Of a DNA stretch of 64,000 nt, positions 44,451-64,000 are shown in pieces. The stretch comes from Stentor roeselii. Lineage: Eukaryota > Ciliophora > Heterotrichea > Heterotrichida > Stentoridae. The notes under the pieces are model-generated. The model ran no database searches, had not been told where the DNA came from, and saw only the letters and a list, made by a program, of their open reading frames with translations. Numbering within the stretch: position 1 is the first letter of the stretch; each line of letters opens with the position of its first letter. The translations under genes and the position numbers were made by a program. The DNA is taken from the NCBI GenBank assembly GCA_006503475.1, contig RSEH01000001.1:1-64000 (forward strand). Reading direction: 5' to 3'.

Positions 44451-44469
44451 AATTATAAACAACTAATAA

Positions 44470-48782: not shown

Positions 48783-49820
48783 TTACAAAAGAAGGTTAAA
48801 ATTAGGGAATCCGATTAAAATCACAGACAAATTATCACTTGACCCTTCCACAAGAGCCTTTTTCATTAACTCCTTAACTGACCAAGACACCCTATCCTCA
48901 AGACTTCCTCTAAGCTTATCCAAAGATGTCCACAAACTGTTGATAATCTCTTGTTTACTTAAAACACTCCAAATTCCATCACTAGTCAAAAGCAAAAAAT
49001 CCATCTTTTTCGTGATTTTCGATACTTTAATATCAGGAATTGCAATAACACCCGACCCTTCAGCGATTTCGCATCCAAAACATCTTGTCACATTGAGCAT
49101 TGCAGGTTTTACTCTAAGAACTTCTTGAAATTCTACAATTTCTCCATTTTCTCTTAAAATTCTTTCATTTTCCTCAACATTTCTAGTGAGATGATCTTCA
49201 GTTACCAGATCTTTTTCAAATCCTTTTAAAGAGCTAAGAAAACATCGACAGTTCCCAAGGTTGGCAATATAAATAAACTTTCCAACAATCAAACAAACCA
49301 AGGCACAAGCTCCAGTTTTCTGCACTTTTGACTTATACTGAGACAGCAGGTCTGACTGAACTTTAAAAAACCCTTCTTGAATGGCTTTTGCAGTATTTTC
49401 TTCAAAATCCGGATGTTTAAAGATCTCTTTATGAAGATTATCCCTCAGATAACTCGCCACGAAAGTCCCTGAAAATCCATCAAAAATAGCGAAATACGAA
49501 ATATTTTTTCCTGAAACCTTTGAAATCTTTTTAAAAATAACGACGCGATCTTCATTAACATCTTTTCTTCCAGCTGAAGTGCACCCAACAAAAACCTGAA
49601 CTTTTCCATGTGGCCTTTTCGAGACCTGAGTACTGAAAATATCCTCAAATTGTTTCTTTTCAAGAGAAGGTAATAATAAAGATACTTTTTTCTCAATCTT
49701 CGGAAGAACTGTCATCAAAGTCGAAGCTCTTCTAGGTAAGACCTTTTTCTGAGAAGTGATTTCATTGATTAAAGTCATTTTTTTCTGTAAAGTCGGGAGC
49801 CTGATGACTTTTTTTTCCAT
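48783..49820 (-). CDS. PP2C-like protein phosphatase with altered DGHGG motif
   Basis: The protein has 345 residues. It has the PP2C plan: VGCTSAGRKDVNEDR (Arg and Glu positions), FAIFDGFSGTFVASYL, LGNCRCFLSS, LLLTSDGIWSVLS and GSSDNLSVIL. The metal-binding Asp in DG, SDG and DN are kept. The DGHGG motif reads DGFSG, so the His that acts as general acid in the human enzyme is Phe, and GDSR reads GNCR. Reduced or non-catalytic activity is possible. The basic N-terminus is about 80 residues. The divergent ACP-like gene starts 24 bp away. Confidence 0.85.
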   Translation of the reverse strand: MEKKVIRLPTLQKKMTLINEITSQKKVLPRRASTLMTVLPKIEKKVSLLLPSLEKKQFEDIFSTQVSKRPHGKVQVFVGCTSAGRKDVNEDRVVIFKKISKVSGKNISYFAIFDGFSGTFVASYLRDNLHKEIFKHPDFEENTAKAIQEGFFKVQSDLLSQYKSKVQKTGACALVCLIVGKFIYIANLGNCRCFLSSLKGFEKDLVTEDHLTRNVEENERILRENGEIVEFQEVLRVKPAMLNVTRCFGCEIAEGSGVIAIPDIKVSKITKKMDFLLLTSDGIWSVLSKQEIINSLWTSLDKLRGSLEDRVSWSVKELMKKALVEGSSDNLSVILIGFPNFNLLL

Positions 49821-49844
49821 TATTTTTTCTTTTCTGCCATAAAA

Positions 49845-50189
49845 ATGTTCGTGACCCGAGTTTTAGCAAAGAAAGTTCTTCTCCGGGCCTACCAGCCTGA
49901 TTATATCGTGATGCCCAGACACGAGGGGCACTGGGTGGACCCTGAAGACGTGACTCGAAGAATCATCAACATTATCAGAGCACACGACCGAATCAAAGAC
50001 CCAAAAATCGTATCACCTGAAAGACCCTTCAAGGAAATGGGACTTGACAACCTCGACCTAGTCGAGATTTTCTTAGAAGTCGAAAAAGACTTTTTCATGG
50101 AGTTCAGTGATGAGCAGGTTGAAAAATTTGCAAAAATTTCTGATGCTGTTGAAGTGGTCTCGAATCATCGGTTCGCTGATGGATATTAA
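49845..50189 (+). CDS. mitochondrial acyl-carrier-protein-like subunit lacking the attachment serine
   Basis: The protein has 114 residues: a short basic N-terminus like a mitochondrial presequence, then an ACP fold. The core MGLDNLDLVEIFLEVEKDFF aligns with the LGLDSLDxVE motif of NDUFAB1, but the phosphopantetheine serine is Asn69 (codon AAC). It therefore cannot carry an acyl chain in the usual way. NDUFAB1 homologues bind LYR-motif proteins in complex I and Fe-S assembly, and the rest of the surface is acidic as in that family. A structural-only complex I role is the likely reading; this is inference. Confidence 0.85.
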   Translation: MFVTRVLAKKVLLRAYQPDYIVMPRHEGHWVDPEDVTRRIINIIRAHDRIKDPKIVSPERPFKEMGLDNLDLVEIFLEVEKDFFMEFSDEQVEKFAKISDAVEVVSNHRFADGY

Positions 50190-58754: not shown

Positions 58755-60224
58755 ATGAAATACGGAAGCTATGGAAGTTCTAAAGTCACTTTCGCACAGG
58801 CACCCATAAAAAGAGGGAAAAAACCATCAGAGAGAAAAAGAGATCTTGCTAAGCTCAAGAAAATGTTTCCAAATATCTTACAAGGTGAAATTGAAGCAGT
58901 TTACAATGAAAACAACGAAAATATTGAAGATTCGATTCTTAATCTTTCTAGTTTTGCTGCTGATGTCAAGGCAGTTGAATCTGAATCGTTTTTAGTTGAT
59001 GAAAAAAGTGAAAATTCGTCGAGAAAGGCAAACAACTTGGCTCTGCTTCATGATATGTTTGAGGATAAAGATCAGGAGTACATTGATAAAGTCTTCAGTC
59101 AGTGTAATGAGGATGTCTCGAAAACAACTGCTTTTATCATAGAATCAGTTGAAGAAAATGAAGACGACCTTAGTAGTGGATTTGGAAGTGATTTTATTGG
59201 ATTCGTTAACAAACAGGCACTTGATAGAAGGTGCAACCAGAACTTTGAAGAGATGGTTGTTGAGATGTTTCCTAATGTTAGCAGAGATGATGTGATTAGA
59301 GTTTTTAATCAGTGTAACAAGAACTTTGTACTGACTATTGATGTACTTGGCCACACGAACGAGTCGATAGAATTCGAAAAACCCAATCCACCTCCCAAAA
59401 AATACGACGAAGAATACCCAGACATGATAAAAGCTCCAAGAAGCAAGCTTCTAGTCGACGGTTACTGGTCAAAAGACCGTAACAACCATTTCCTGGAAGG
59501 CAACAACGTAGACGCAGTAAAAAAAATCAAGATCCTAAAGCAATCCTTTCCAGCAGTAGACGACATCATAATAAAAGAGACTTTTTTCCAGTTAGGAGAC
59601 AGTCTAACAGCGACTTTAGACCATTTAAAAGAGTTATTTCCAAGCAACTACCGAGAAATCCAAGCAGAGGGTCCGATTTTCATCCCCCACCCAGTCCAAC
59701 CCTCTTCCCAGAAGCCTTCCCCTGCCGAGCTGCTGCCTCTGGTGACTGACTCACGGCTTCCAGACCAGCATTTCGAGGACCTAGTGGCAACAATGCAAAG
59801 AGAAAAGCAATCTCACGACACTATCTTCCAAATAGCGGCAAATACAGCAGCTGGAGGAAACTTGACTGAGGCAAAAAAACTTTCAGATGAAGGAAAAAAA
59901 CATCAAAAACGGTTTCGTGAGATTTACTTGAAAGTCTTTAGAGAGATTTTTAGAAGAAATAACCCTGATGTTGAAAATTCTGATAAAATTGACTTACATG
60001 GACTGCAGATTGAAGAAGCTTTAGCCATGCTTGATAGTTTTTTGAATCATGTGAAAGGAAGTTTCAAGAAGGTTGAGGTGGTTACGGTATTTATTATTTA
60101 GGGCAGAGGGTCGCACTCGGTCAGGGGAATTTCGAAGTTAAAGCCGGCGGTTTCAGACTTTTTAAGTCAAGGCGGGTTTAAGTTTAGCGAACTGGATGGA
60201 GGGTACCTGGTTTCTTTGCCTTAG
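58755..60224 (+). CDS. CUE-domain and Smr-domain protein (spliced)
   Basis: Two exons join through a 15-nt intron at 60087-60101, giving about 484 residues. Two or more CUE-like units occur (KMFPNILQGEIEAVYNENNE; EMFPNVSRDDVIRVFNQCNK; QSFPAVDDIIIKETFFQLGD). The C-terminus is a Smr domain: DLHGLQIEEALAMLDSFLNH and, across the splice, VTGRGSHSVRGISKLKPAVS. Smr domains act as nicking endonucleases or RNA-cleaving modules; CUE domains bind ubiquitin. This layout resembles Cue2/NEDD4BP2-type ribosome rescue nucleases, where collided ribosomes are cut. A role in no-go decay is inference, but it is notable beside TCF25/Rqc1 in the same window. Confidence 0.9.
60087..60101 (+). other. 15-nt intron in CUE-Smr gene
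   Basis: GTATTTATTATTTAG, phase 0, ending in in-frame TAG if retained. Splicing completes the Smr motif TGRGSHS. Confidence 0.95.
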
Positions 60225-60332: not shown

Positions 60333-61748
60333 TCAGAGCTTTTTATTTTGCAGTCTTCTTCGGATTAAGTCGAAAGTATCTAAAAAGATGAGATTGTGTC
60401 CGAAGATTTTCCTGAAGTCGAATTTTATGTCGTTTTCAGATAAAAACAGAGAAATCTCGAATTTCAAATCTCTTCCCAGGTCAGTTCTATTATCATTTTC
60501 ATTCATTCTCGTTCTTGTGACCATGCCAATAGTCCTCACACGAATTTTAAACTTTTCTATAATTTTCCATTCAAATTTACAGTCTTTAAGTACAGTGAAA
60601 AGAACCTCAACCATTTCTTCAGTGCTCATCTGAGCAAAAAATCCAAATTTCCAGTCATTCGGAGGATTGCAAGTGCGAAAAGGAAAAAAAAGTCCAGGAA
60701 ACATCTTAGCGGGTATTTCAATCGCATTTTGATTATACTGTTTACTATCATAAAGCAACTCATAGCTGGTAGTGAACAAGTCAAACCCTTTCCTCTCTAA
60801 AATCTTTTCTTTCAACCTGGCAGCTTCTTCACTAAGTCCTGAAAACTGTTGACTATTAAGCAAACTATAAAAAATCCCATCATCAATTCCAACTTTTTTA
60901 AACTTTTTCATCTTAGGGTATGATAAAAGTTGCATCCTGCCAAGCCAAGGATGATTCATCACTTCTGGCAAAGTGATTCTATTCAAGGGGTCAACTACAA
61001 AGCATTGACTTAGAAGACTGCAGAGAGCAGAAGAGACGTGGTAAGGAACTCGATAAACTCCATTTTTGATCTTATCGTAAAGACTCGGCAAAGTCGGCTC
61101 ATCAAAGGGGAGACTTCCACAGACAATAGTATATAAAATAACACCCAAACTCCATACATCAACCTCACTTCCACAGTACTTCGAGTTCGAAATAACTTCA
61201 GGAGCTGCGTAGTTAGCTGAACCACAACAAGTCTTTAAAAATTCTCCATCTTTCATGTAGTTTGAAAGACCAAAGTCAGAAATTTTCGGATTAAAACGCT
61301 CGTCGATTAGGATATTTTCTAGTTTTAAGTCTCGATGAGAAATTTTACGACTGTGGAAGTAATGAACGGCTTCTGTTATTTTTTGGAAAAGGATGCATGC
61401 ACGGTTTTCATCGAGTCTTCCTTCTCGCTCGATGATGTTGTAAAGTTCCCCGCCTGGAACGTATTCTAAGATGAGATAGAAATATTTTTCTGAGATGACA
61501 ATGTCGTATCTAGATGACTGGTACAGTTTTACTATGTTGGGATGATTGAAACTTCGAAGGATTTTTGCCTCTCGACGGATGTTGTGATAAAGGTTTTCAT
61601 TTTTCGCTTTTTCTATGTCGATTAATTTTATAGCGACCCGTCTACCAGTGACGTTATGTTGAGCCACTATTTAAACCTTACACTTAACTTTACCGAAAGC
61701 TCCTTCTCCAAGTCCTCGAAGAATCCTGTAGTTTTTAAGGTCTGACAT
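60333..61748 (-). CDS. AMPK/SNF1-type kinase alpha subunit (spliced)
   Basis: Two exons join through a 15-nt intron at 61667-61681, giving about 466 residues. The first exon supplies the Gly loop RGLGEGAFGKVK. Then come VAIKLID, ISHRDLKLENILID, and DFGLSNYMKDGEFLKTCCGS with the LKB1-type activation Thr. The C-terminus (GFFAQMSTEEMVEVLFTVLK, FEWKIIEKFKIRVR, FLDTFDLIRRRL) matches the AMPK alpha C-terminal domain that binds the beta subunit. It is a regulator of energy state. Without the splice the kinase would lack its nucleotide-binding loop. The start is in ATATAAATG. Confidence 0.95.
61667..61681 (-). other. 15-nt intron in AMPK-alpha gene
   Basis: GTAAGGTTTAAATAG on the minus strand, phase 1, A at position 10. 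Confidence 0.95.
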
Positions 61749-61969: not shown

Positions 61970-62278
61970 TTAATAACTTTTTTGGCTTGAATGAGAACCT
62001 GATAAAGTCTCCTGGCTTTCAATTGTTTGGGTCGAGTATCCGACTTCTGCAAGAAAGCCGTAAGGATCTTCAAGACACTCAGAACCGTCACTTGAACATG
62101 CCCAACCAGGAGCACAGCATCGACTATTTGAACAGCAAACTCCAGCTGCGAATATGCAACAGCCCCATTTGTCATTGTCTCCTTTACAACAGCTGTATTC
62201 GCCTTCACAGATATGCTTATCTGAACATCTGCTTCCTAGGGTGACTAGAATTAAGATGAAAACCAAGGACAATTTCAT
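61970..62278 (-). CDS. small secreted granulin
   Basis: The protein has 102 residues: signal peptide (1 to about 18), then one granulin domain with paired cysteines (CEGEYSCCKGDNDKWGCCIF, VCCSNSRCCAPGWACSSDGS), then a Ser/Thr-rich tail with no Cys. Single granulin modules of this kind are secreted or lysosomal in other eukaryotes. The paired CC pattern leaves little doubt on the fold. The start is in TTATAAATG and lies 5 bp from the divergent CWC22 start. Confidence 0.93.
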   Translation of the reverse strand: MKLSLVFILILVTLGSRCSDKHICEGEYSCCKGDNDKWGCCIFAAGVCCSNSRCCAPGWACSSDGSECLEDPYGFLAEVGYSTQTIESQETLSGSHSSQKSY

Positions 62279-62286
62279 TTATAATG
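62276..62286. promoter_or_regulatory. bidirectional start, ATG codons 5 bp apart
   Basis: CATTTATAATG holds the granulin ATG on the minus strand and the CWC22 ATG on the plus strand, with TTATA between. Both transcripts must begin inside each other's coding region or at the start codons themselves. Confidence 0.6.
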
Positions 62287-64000
62287 GCGAGGAACAAAGA
62301 AGGAGTTTATATTCCTCCGTTTAGACTGGCTCAAATGAGGGATGAGATTGAAGATAAGTCTTCAGAGGAATATCAAAGGTTAATGTGGGACCTGCTTCGA
62401 AAGTCATTGAATGGAATTATTAATAAGGCAAACATCAGCAACCTGCCAAAGATCATATTTGAACTATTCAGTGAGAACCTCCTACGTGGTCGTGGCCTAC
62501 TCTGCAAAAGTCTCCTTCAAGGTCAACTAGCCGCTCCAAACTTCACCCACGTCTACGCAGCCCTAGTTGCCGTGATAAACACAAAACTTCCCGAAGTCGG
62601 TCTCCTGATAGTTCACCGTCTAATAAATCAATTCCAACGTTCTTACAAGCGCAGTGACAAGTTAACCTGCGTAGGTTCATTAAAATTCATTGCTCATCTA
62701 TTTAACCAGCAAGTAGTTCACGAGATCCTTCCCCTTCAAGTATCAGCCTTACTAATAGAGCAATCAACAGAAGACTCTATCGAGATAGTCTGTGACTTTC
62801 TAATAGAATGTGGTCAAGTGTTAAGTGAAATGAGTCCATTAGGAACAAACGTGATTTTCGAGAGACTCAGAGCGATTTTGCAAGAAGGAGGCACTTCAAA
62901 GCGAGTCCAATACACGATCGAGCAGCTGATGAACGTCCGCAAGGAAAAGTTCAGAGACAACCCGGGAGTCCTGCAGCAGTTGGACCTTGTTGAAGATTCT
63001 GATAAAGTCACTCATGAAGTCACTTTAGATCAGTCACTTGACTTGCAAGAAAAGTTTAATGTTTTTAGAGTCGACCCTCAGTTCATTGAAAATGAGAAGA
63101 TTTGGGAAGAAATTAAAAAAGAAATACTTGGAGATGAGGATAGTCAGGAAGATGTTGAAGAGGAAGAAGAAGAGCAAAGGGAAAAAGTCGTCATTCGTGA
63201 TATGACTGATGCGGATACTGTGAATTTAAAGAAAATGATTTACTTGAATGTGATGTCTAGTGTTGATTTTGAAGAATGTGCTAATAAAATGTTGAAACTT
63301 AAAATACGTCCTGGACAAGAAGGGGAAGTCGCTCATATGATTGTAGAATGTTGTATGCATGAAAGGTCTTATTTGAGGTTTTATGGATTGTTAGCTGAAA
63401 GGTTTTCAATTCTTAACCCGCTGTATAAGGACTTCTTGGAGGAGGAGTTTTTCAAGTTTTACAGTACAGTCGATAGATATGAAACTAACAAGTTAAGAAA
63501 CATCAGCAAGTTCTTCGCTCATCTTCTATTCACTGATGCGATCACCTGGGGAGTCATGAAAATAATCGTCTTGTCTGAGGACCAGACTACTTCTTCAAGC
63601 AGGATTTTTATTAAAAACTTGATGCAAGAAATCGCTGAAAACATCGGCACTGAAAATATGATTCTTAGGTTTAAGGACTTTGAATTAGAAGGGTGCTTTG
63701 ATGGGTTGTTTTTGAAAGATATTCCTAGAAATACAAGGTTTTGCATCAACTTCTTCACTTCTATTGGACTTGGAGAACTCACTGAGGAACTTAGAAAACA
63801 TTTGGAGACTTTTCCTGCACAAGCTGATGAAGAAAGTGATACTAGTGAAGAGACCTCGGAAAGTGATGAGGATCAGGTTGAGGTCATGCAGATTGAAGCA
63901 CTTAAGGATCCGATTAAGAAGATTGAAGAGGATCGGCTTAGTGTTTCTATGAGTATTGATTCTGGATTTTCATCGAAAAGGTCTAGCTCGTCGTCTAGAA
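62284..64000 (+). CDS. CWC22: CWC22 spliceosome factor, partial (runs off the window)
   Basis: About 572 residues are visible with no stop before the edge. MARNKEGVYIPPFRLAQMRD begins the MIF4G domain (SLNGIINKANISNLPKIIFE, RGRGLLCKSLLQGQ, FTHVYAALVAVINTKLPEVG). After an acidic linker comes the MA3 domain (SSVDFEECANKMLKLKI, ETNKLRNISKFFAHLLF, IPRNTRFCINFFTSIGLG). The acidic Ser-rich tail is cut by the window end. CWC22 places eIF4A3, hence the exon junction complex, on spliced mRNA. This is of interest in an organism with 15-nt introns. Confidence 0.96.
   Translation, partial: MARNKEGVYIPPFRLAQMRDEIEDKSSEEYQRLMWDLLRKSLNGIINKANISNLPKIIFELFSENLLRGRGLLCKSLLQGQLAAPNFTHVYAALVAVINTKLPEVGLLIVHRLINQFQRSYKRSDKLTCVGSLKFIAHLFNQQVVHEILPLQVSALLIEQSTEDSIEIVCDFLIECGQVLSEMSPLGTNVIFERLRAILQEGGTSKRVQYTIEQLMNVRKEKFRDNPGVLQQLDLVEDSDKVTHEVTLDQSLDLQEKFNVFRVDPQFIENEKIWEEIKKEILGDEDSQEDVEEEEEEQREKVVIRDMTDADTVNLKKMIYLNVMSSVDFEECANKMLKLKIRPGQEGEVAHMIVECCMHERSYLRFYGLLAERFSILNPLYKDFLEEEFFKFYSTVDRYETNKLRNISKFFAHLLFTDAITWGVMKIIVLSEDQTTSSSRIFIKNLMQEIAENIGTENMILRFKDFELEGCFDGLFLKDIPRNTRFCINFFTSIGLGELTEELRKHLETFPAQADEESDTSEETSESDEDQVEVMQIEALKDPIKKIEEDRLSVSMSIDSGFSSKRSSSSSR

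Follow-up and report, generated by a model that had tools for sequence, protein, structure and literature searches.

Divergent granulin and CWC22 genes with start codons 5 bp apart in a compact Stentor-like ciliate genome

A granulin-domain gene on the minus strand and the gene for the splicing factor CWC22 on the plus strand form a real divergent pair, and their start codons, read directly from the sequence, stand 5 bp apart with only the spacer TTATA between them (Table 1). The pair is the extreme case of a tight packing that extends throughout the genome, and is itself ordinary rather than singular. The explanation held here, with moderate confidence, is that such genes would be transcribed almost without leaders from AT-rich initiators next to their start codons, with TTATA serving both strands at granulin/CWC22; the tight arrangement would then reflect extreme genome compaction, with no special device for these two genes. 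An earlier sequence-only reading had described the two ATGs as facing apart with TTATA between them, and the letters at 62276-62286 confirm this.

The window, meaning the whole stretch of 64,000 nucleotides that was analysed, lies in contig C92 of an assembly of 44.4 Mb in 522 contigs. Genome-wide statements draw on a 314-kb sample, consisting of the window and loci L002-L026, in which genes were predicted with our own gene finder, trained on the same 314 kb.

Table 1. Features at and around the granulin/CWC22 start codons (window positions; offsets are relative to the start codon named)
Feature	Position	Strand	Basis
Granulin-domain coding sequence, 102 aa	61970..62278	-	ORF; PF00396; PDB granulin A; TAA directly before ATG
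Intron-like GT..AG 15-mer GTGACTAGAATTAAG	62241..62255	+	GT..AG scan
Out-of-frame upstream ATG, -28 from CWC22 start	62256..62258	+	sequence
In-frame TGA closing the CWC22 frame upstream, at -27	62257..62259	+	stop scan
Granulin start codon	CAT at 62276-62278, ATG 62278..62276	-	sequence
Spacer TTATA between both start codons	62279..62283	.	sequence
TATAA abutting granulin ATG (TATAA-ATG)	62279..62283	-	sequence; TATAA at exactly -5 in 17/157 sampled starts
TATAA overlapping A of CWC22 ATG (TATA-ATG)	62280..62284	+	sequence; TATAA at -4 in 12/157 sampled starts
CWC22 start codon ATG	62284..62286	+	sequence
CWC22 splicing factor coding sequence, runs past window end	62284..64000	+	ORF; Pfam; similarity to solved CWC22 homologs; gene model

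Gene identity and gene spacing

The minus-strand reading frame belongs to the granulin family by its match to PF00396 (29.3 bits, E 1e-6, against a cut-off of 20.9 bits), and it also matches PDB granulin A (E 4e-06); its N-terminus is a hydrophobic stretch that, judged by eye only, is a putative signal peptide. The plus-strand gene is predicted to end 345 bases beyond the window and to encode 681 aa, with one 16-nt intron. Its product matches both MIF4G (68.4 bits) and MA3 (73.6 bits) above cut-off, and phmmer aligns it with the solved homolog 5mqf, taken here to be the human protein, at E 6.6e-165, query residue 6 onward corresponding to 5mqf residue 130 onward. The cwf22 chain 9esh, presumably from fission yeast, aligns from query residue 5, and chains 9l5s, 6yvh and 4c9b likewise align from residue 5-6. 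On the combination of MIF4G, MA3 and CWC22-specific full-length similarity, the predicted protein is CWC22.

The gene finder used for the sample admitted intron lengths of 15 and 16 nt only and required 15-nt introns to contain a stop; an earlier version lacking the stop requirement over-called introns (184 versus 42 with it). The resulting 180 gene models take in 84.8% of bases and hold 42 introns with GTAA..TAG-like ends, 35 of 15 nt and 7 of 16 nt, lengths that were preset and not freely tested. Within the window, 15-nt introns are seen at 60087-60101 in a plus-strand CUE/Smr-like gene, whose domains were named by eye, and at 61667-61681 in a minus-strand protein kinase gene (Pfam Pkinase; model 60333-61748).

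Close divergent spacing is common in the sample. Gaps of 50 bp or less separate 18 of the 39 divergent pairs, and gaps of 24 bp or less separate 11 of them (5, 6, 8, 9, 13, 14, 18, 19, 19, 24 and 24 bp), the granulin/CWC22 gap being the smallest of all 39. Were the gaps exponentially distributed, only 2.8 of 39 would fall at or below 24 bp, given their mean of 333 bp (P 6e-5). The same eleven close pairs appear, among 30 pairs, in an intron-free list of plain ORFs. Three further close pairs lie inside the window, with gaps of 19, 24 and 18 bp at 44451, 49821 and 53641. In the 24-bp pair, at 48783-50189, genes for a PP2C phosphatase and an acyl-carrier-like protein (PP-binding, a phosphopantetheine carrier) diverge with 24 bp between their ATGs.

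Both partners have Pfam matches in the pairs with gaps of 9 bp (ion channel / MORN, contig C1), 19 bp (tRNA methyltransferase / PP2C, C10), 24 bp (PP2C / phosphopantetheine carrier, C92) and 25 bp (THAP4-like / zinc finger, C80), and another four of the eleven pairs at or below 24 bp have a Pfam match on one partner. Of the 22 proteins encoded by those eleven pairs, ten lack any Pfam family at E 0.001, and an eleventh has only an EF-hand match, below the curated cut-off. That granulin and CWC22 might be linked by special regulation was considered and rejected, as short gaps also separate other, unrelated genes.

Compaction extends to the other gene orientations. Convergent neighbours lie 24 bp or less apart in 13 of 39 pairs, and in 24 of 87 same-strand pairs the stop codon is followed by the next ATG after 0-24 nt, a count in which some tandem gaps of 0-5 may represent split gene models. 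At such same-strand distances the 3' UTR, terminator and next promoter must therefore overlap, or the transcripts may be dicistronic. Divergent pairs are not explicable by polycistronic transcription, and so the 5-bp gap sets a limit on the DNA needed for a Pol II start.

AT-rich sequence at start codons

Signals at start codons were sought at 157 predicted starts, each belonging to a protein of 100 aa or more, out of 169 with enough flanking sequence. TATAA occurs in the last 12 nt before 38 of the 157 starts (24%) but in only 1.8% of 12-nt control windows taken from -90..-19; for ATAA the figures are 86 starts (55%) and 9.2%. The enrichment is also present at starts preceded by gaps longer than 100 bp (n=74, intergenic controls), with TATAA at 16/74 versus 2.0% and ATAA at 42/74 versus 12.6%; the AT fraction of the last 12 nt of these starts is 0.82, compared with 0.72 further upstream. 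When the final 12 bases were shuffled separately for every one of the 157 starts, 500 times over, TATAA was found at 15.3 starts on average and at 27 at most, versus the 38 observed, and ATAA at 41.3 on average and 55 at most, versus 86. The TATAA excess is thus partly plain AT-richness, with an excess of about 2.5-fold remaining for TATAA after shuffling (about twofold or more for TATAA and ATAA). The exact word TATAA is absent from the last 12 nt of most starts (119/157). Counted in the last 12 nt together with the A of the ATG, ATAA is present at 50-69% of starts whichever of six orientation and gap classes is taken. A similar association is seen from the side of the word itself: 38 of the 135 ATAAATG words in the sample are predicted starts, against 172 of 9539 for all ATGs. 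The base at -1 is A in a fraction of 0.67.

The sample thus contains an AT-rich element placed at gene starts, as in initiators of the Giardia type. TATAA begins mainly at -4 (12 starts), -5 (17), -7 (13) and -10 (4), with single cases elsewhere; it never begins at -6 among the sampled starts. At granulin/CWC22 the spacer spells TATAA on both strands, as TATAA-ATG for granulin and TATA-ATG for CWC22, and because TATAA reads on both strands, TTATA would act as a start element in both directions. Under the mechanism favoured here, transcription of the two genes would begin within a few bases of their ATGs, at an initiator-like AT-rich element that marks the start, giving mRNA leaders of perhaps 0-15 nt. 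The core promoter machinery would sit over the first codons of both genes, and one polymerase complex would be loaded at a time on TTATA, in either orientation. TTATA may be one element firing both ways, or may comprise two overlapping unidirectional starts. Alternatively, TATAA may act in translation, as a start-codon context, and have no part in the promoter.

A stronger and more tentative proposal, which we regard as possible but would not bet on, is that a TTATA(A) box of 5-8 bp, palindrome-like and in contact with both ATGs, is a complete bidirectional initiator. Pol II would begin each mRNA at its ATG or no more than a few bases away, with everything else of the core promoter contained in the coding DNA of the two genes; roughly one divergent pair in four has a gap no larger than 24 bp (11/39, 3 with the box alone), and these pairs would then be variants of the same arrangement. 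Site counts are 35 for the exact palindrome CATTTATAAATG and 12 for its reversal, used as a control; the control word ACTTTATAAAGT has 13 and its reverse 38. Over-representation of CATTTATAAATG by word count was consequently judged unconvincing (35 versus 12, 13 and 38); its ORF context is convincing instead. Fourteen of the 35 sites were inspected, namely thirteen in the fetched loci (sites on C146 and C148 were passed over) and one on C70. At ten of the 14 the site abuts, on one side, the start of an ORF whose frame is 133 aa or longer, several of these frames running off the fetched end, and 3 of the 14 have ORF starts on both sides, the shorter partner being 84 to 172 aa; leaving out the C70 site, the figures are 9/13 and 2/13.

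Among 6-mers at -60..-11 of starts with gaps of at least 60, none was judged, without a significance test, strong enough to be an additional upstream promoter word. Base composition likewise gives no trace of an embedded promoter: the GC fraction of codons 2-16 is 0.411 in pairs with gaps of 24 bp or less and 0.386-0.401 in the other classes.

Leader length and alternative explanations

Upstream ATGs offer a measure of how far leaders extend. Out-of-frame upstream ATGs number 1 at -10..-4 where 6.9 are expected (P 0.008), 2 at -15..-11 where 5.8 are expected (P 0.07), and 5 at -20..-16 where 5.7 are expected, and most bins beyond are near expectation; milder deficits occur further out (8 versus 12.3 at -40..-31, and 44 versus 59.5 at -100..-61), and all of these depletion figures rest on small counts. 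Because the depletion is confined to about 10-15 nt, leaders are probably shorter than about 20 nt, and the out-of-frame ATG at -28 of CWC22, whose frame of about 22 codons (length by eye) overlaps the CWC22 start, agrees with this estimate. The leader of granulin is unconstrained by upstream ATGs, since the nearest one is 129 nt away.

The main competitor to near-leaderless transcription is a pair of overlapping antisense leaders, in which each gene would start tens of bases inside the coding sequence of its partner, the two 5' UTRs would be complementary, and TATAA would serve as translation context only. Several observations can be accommodated in this way: a conventional core promoter that avoids the coding DNA would not fit into the 5-bp gap, the AT-rich context before the ATG (including the preference for A at -1) is plausible for translation, the TATAA excess is in part mere AT-richness, and the distant upstream ATG of granulin leaves its leader unconstrained. 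Against this, upstream ATGs are back at about the expected level beyond about 20 nt, and the CWC22 mRNA would bear its out-of-frame ATG at -28, which is expected to be inhibitory. Moreover, among the 22 genes of pairs no more than 24 bp apart, partner-strand ATGs show no depletion in the first codons (14 in nt 4-48 versus 16 in nt 101-145), and TATAA occurs at several offsets, with no single fixed register. Overlapping antisense leaders are therefore considered unlikely here, though they retain some weight.

The choice between leaderless transcription and mutually antisense leaders had been posed by the sequence-only reading, and that dilemma is real; the depletion of ATGs over about 10-15 nt, the undepleted partner-strand ATGs and the CWC22 ATG at -28 favour the near-leaderless horn. 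The companion statement that there is no space for separate promoters stands as far as DNA outside the coding regions is concerned, but it assumes that promoters must lie there, yet ATAA or TATAA is found near many starts. If ATG-proximal starts are true, core promoters would be embedded in the coding DNA of a ciliate that is seemingly free-living and not a reduced parasite, and the TATAA-like element would be a simple candidate to mutate. A start-proximal signal would also be useful to gene finders on such genomes.

Splicing could in principle supply a leader from elsewhere, by joining a non-coding exon inside the granulin gene to CWC22 through removal of the 15-nt GTGACTAGAATTAAG, which has GT..AG ends and the right length. 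Since the in-frame TGA comes after it, GTGACTAGAATTAAG could only be a 5'-UTR intron; the out-of-frame ATG and the TGA would both remain before the CWC22 start, and no coding sequence would be gained. Four GT..AG stretches of 15-25 nt fall in the 150 nt upstream of CWC22, all ending before the in-frame TGA, and three of the stretches in these 150 nt are 15/16-mers of the kind that arises by chance; the 150 nt upstream of granulin contain no GT..AG stretch of 15-25 nt, and the granulin side is thus without a counterpart. A 5'-UTR intron is accordingly very improbable. More generally, an upstream exon joined by a 15/16-nt intron fits neither protein, because the first in-frame upstream stop of granulin is the TAA at -3, directly before the ATG, and that of CWC22 is the TGA at -27, the GT..AG stretches ending earlier.

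Equally remote is the suggestion that granulin, CWC22 or both are translated from a later Met, with more space between them, for although CWC22 has its next Met at codon 18, chain 5gm6 (presumably budding yeast) aligns only from CWC22 residue 28, so that the first residues are not universal, and moving all sampled starts to the next Met leaves 0/39 gaps of 50 bp or less, so that start choice matters, Met18 lies 17 codons in, within the region of homology, the G-x-YIPP segment that opens the core (GVYIPP in CWC22) precedes it and is aligned in both printed alignments (5mqf and 9esh), granulin has no Met other than its start codon, and ATAA/TATAA words are concentrated at the chosen ATGs. A CWC22 start at Met18 is disfavoured because the GVYIPP segment would be lost. 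The earlier description of both N-termini as well supported thus holds, given the aligned GVYIPP start and a granulin ATG that follows an in-frame TAA and is the sole Met.

Comparison with known systems

Stentor coeruleus uses the standard genetic code. In the genome of the window, too, UGA seems from the reading frames to act as a stop: TGA occurs in 21 of 63 frames that are delimited by TAA and TAG alone and are 400 codons or longer, mostly near frame ends or in frames littered with TGA, with a few internal cases. The tryptophan reading of UGA in Blepharisma stoltei (PMC9942806) is a difference from the genome studied here, where UGA behaves as a stop. The somatic genome of B. stoltei is otherwise described as gene-dense, with 41 Mb, introns of 15-16 bp and short intergenic and untranslated regions (PMC9942806); neither the spacing of start codons nor an element close to them is treated in the passages of that paper covered here. 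Stentor introns are given as 15 bp (PMC7858049), a length that the preset 15-nt introns of the gene models would match. From the intron lengths and the apparent use of UGA as a stop, the genome is probably that of a Stentor-like heterotrich with the standard code. The main text of a S. coeruleus paper (PMC9505925) makes no mention of UTRs, intergenic regions, transcription starts or promoters. For heterotrichs as a group, no mapped start sites or start-proximal element were found in the literature covered, which does not extend to the Stentor genome paper (PMC5659724).

Short leaders are reported from other ciliates. In the excerpts drawn on here, Cap-Seq puts the median 5' UTR of Paramecium tetraurelia at 19 nt (PMC5485702), and the leaders of Halteria grandinella average about 18 nt, a TATA-like motif preceding the transcription start (PMC7858049). 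This Halteria motif begins some 17 bp ahead of the transcription start and so would lie about 35 bp before the ATG (PMC7858049). Halteria genes are mostly single on nanochromosomes, whereas here the motif is at the ATG and is shared by divergent genes on one chromosome. In Spironucleus, multiple As precede the start codon and a C-rich motif lies about 10 bp upstream (PMC3916229).

The parallel is closest with Giardia, a compact genome in which, in the passages considered, leaders are mostly below 20 nt and the start site is contained in an AT-rich, somewhat symmetrical consensus (PMC3792122). Some Giardia starts proceed both ways from the same nucleotide between adjacent genes and others are two close or overlapping starts, and the authors allow that supposed bidirectional transcription may represent unidirectional events near each other (PMC3792122); Giardia promoters have also been suggested to be bidirectional (PMC3610916). 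The points of likeness are a compact genome and an AT-rich element at gene starts, which adjacent divergent genes would share. The genome studied here, which looks like that of a heterotrich ciliate, differs from Giardia in its predicted 15-nt introns and in the placement of ATAA/TATAA at the ATG.
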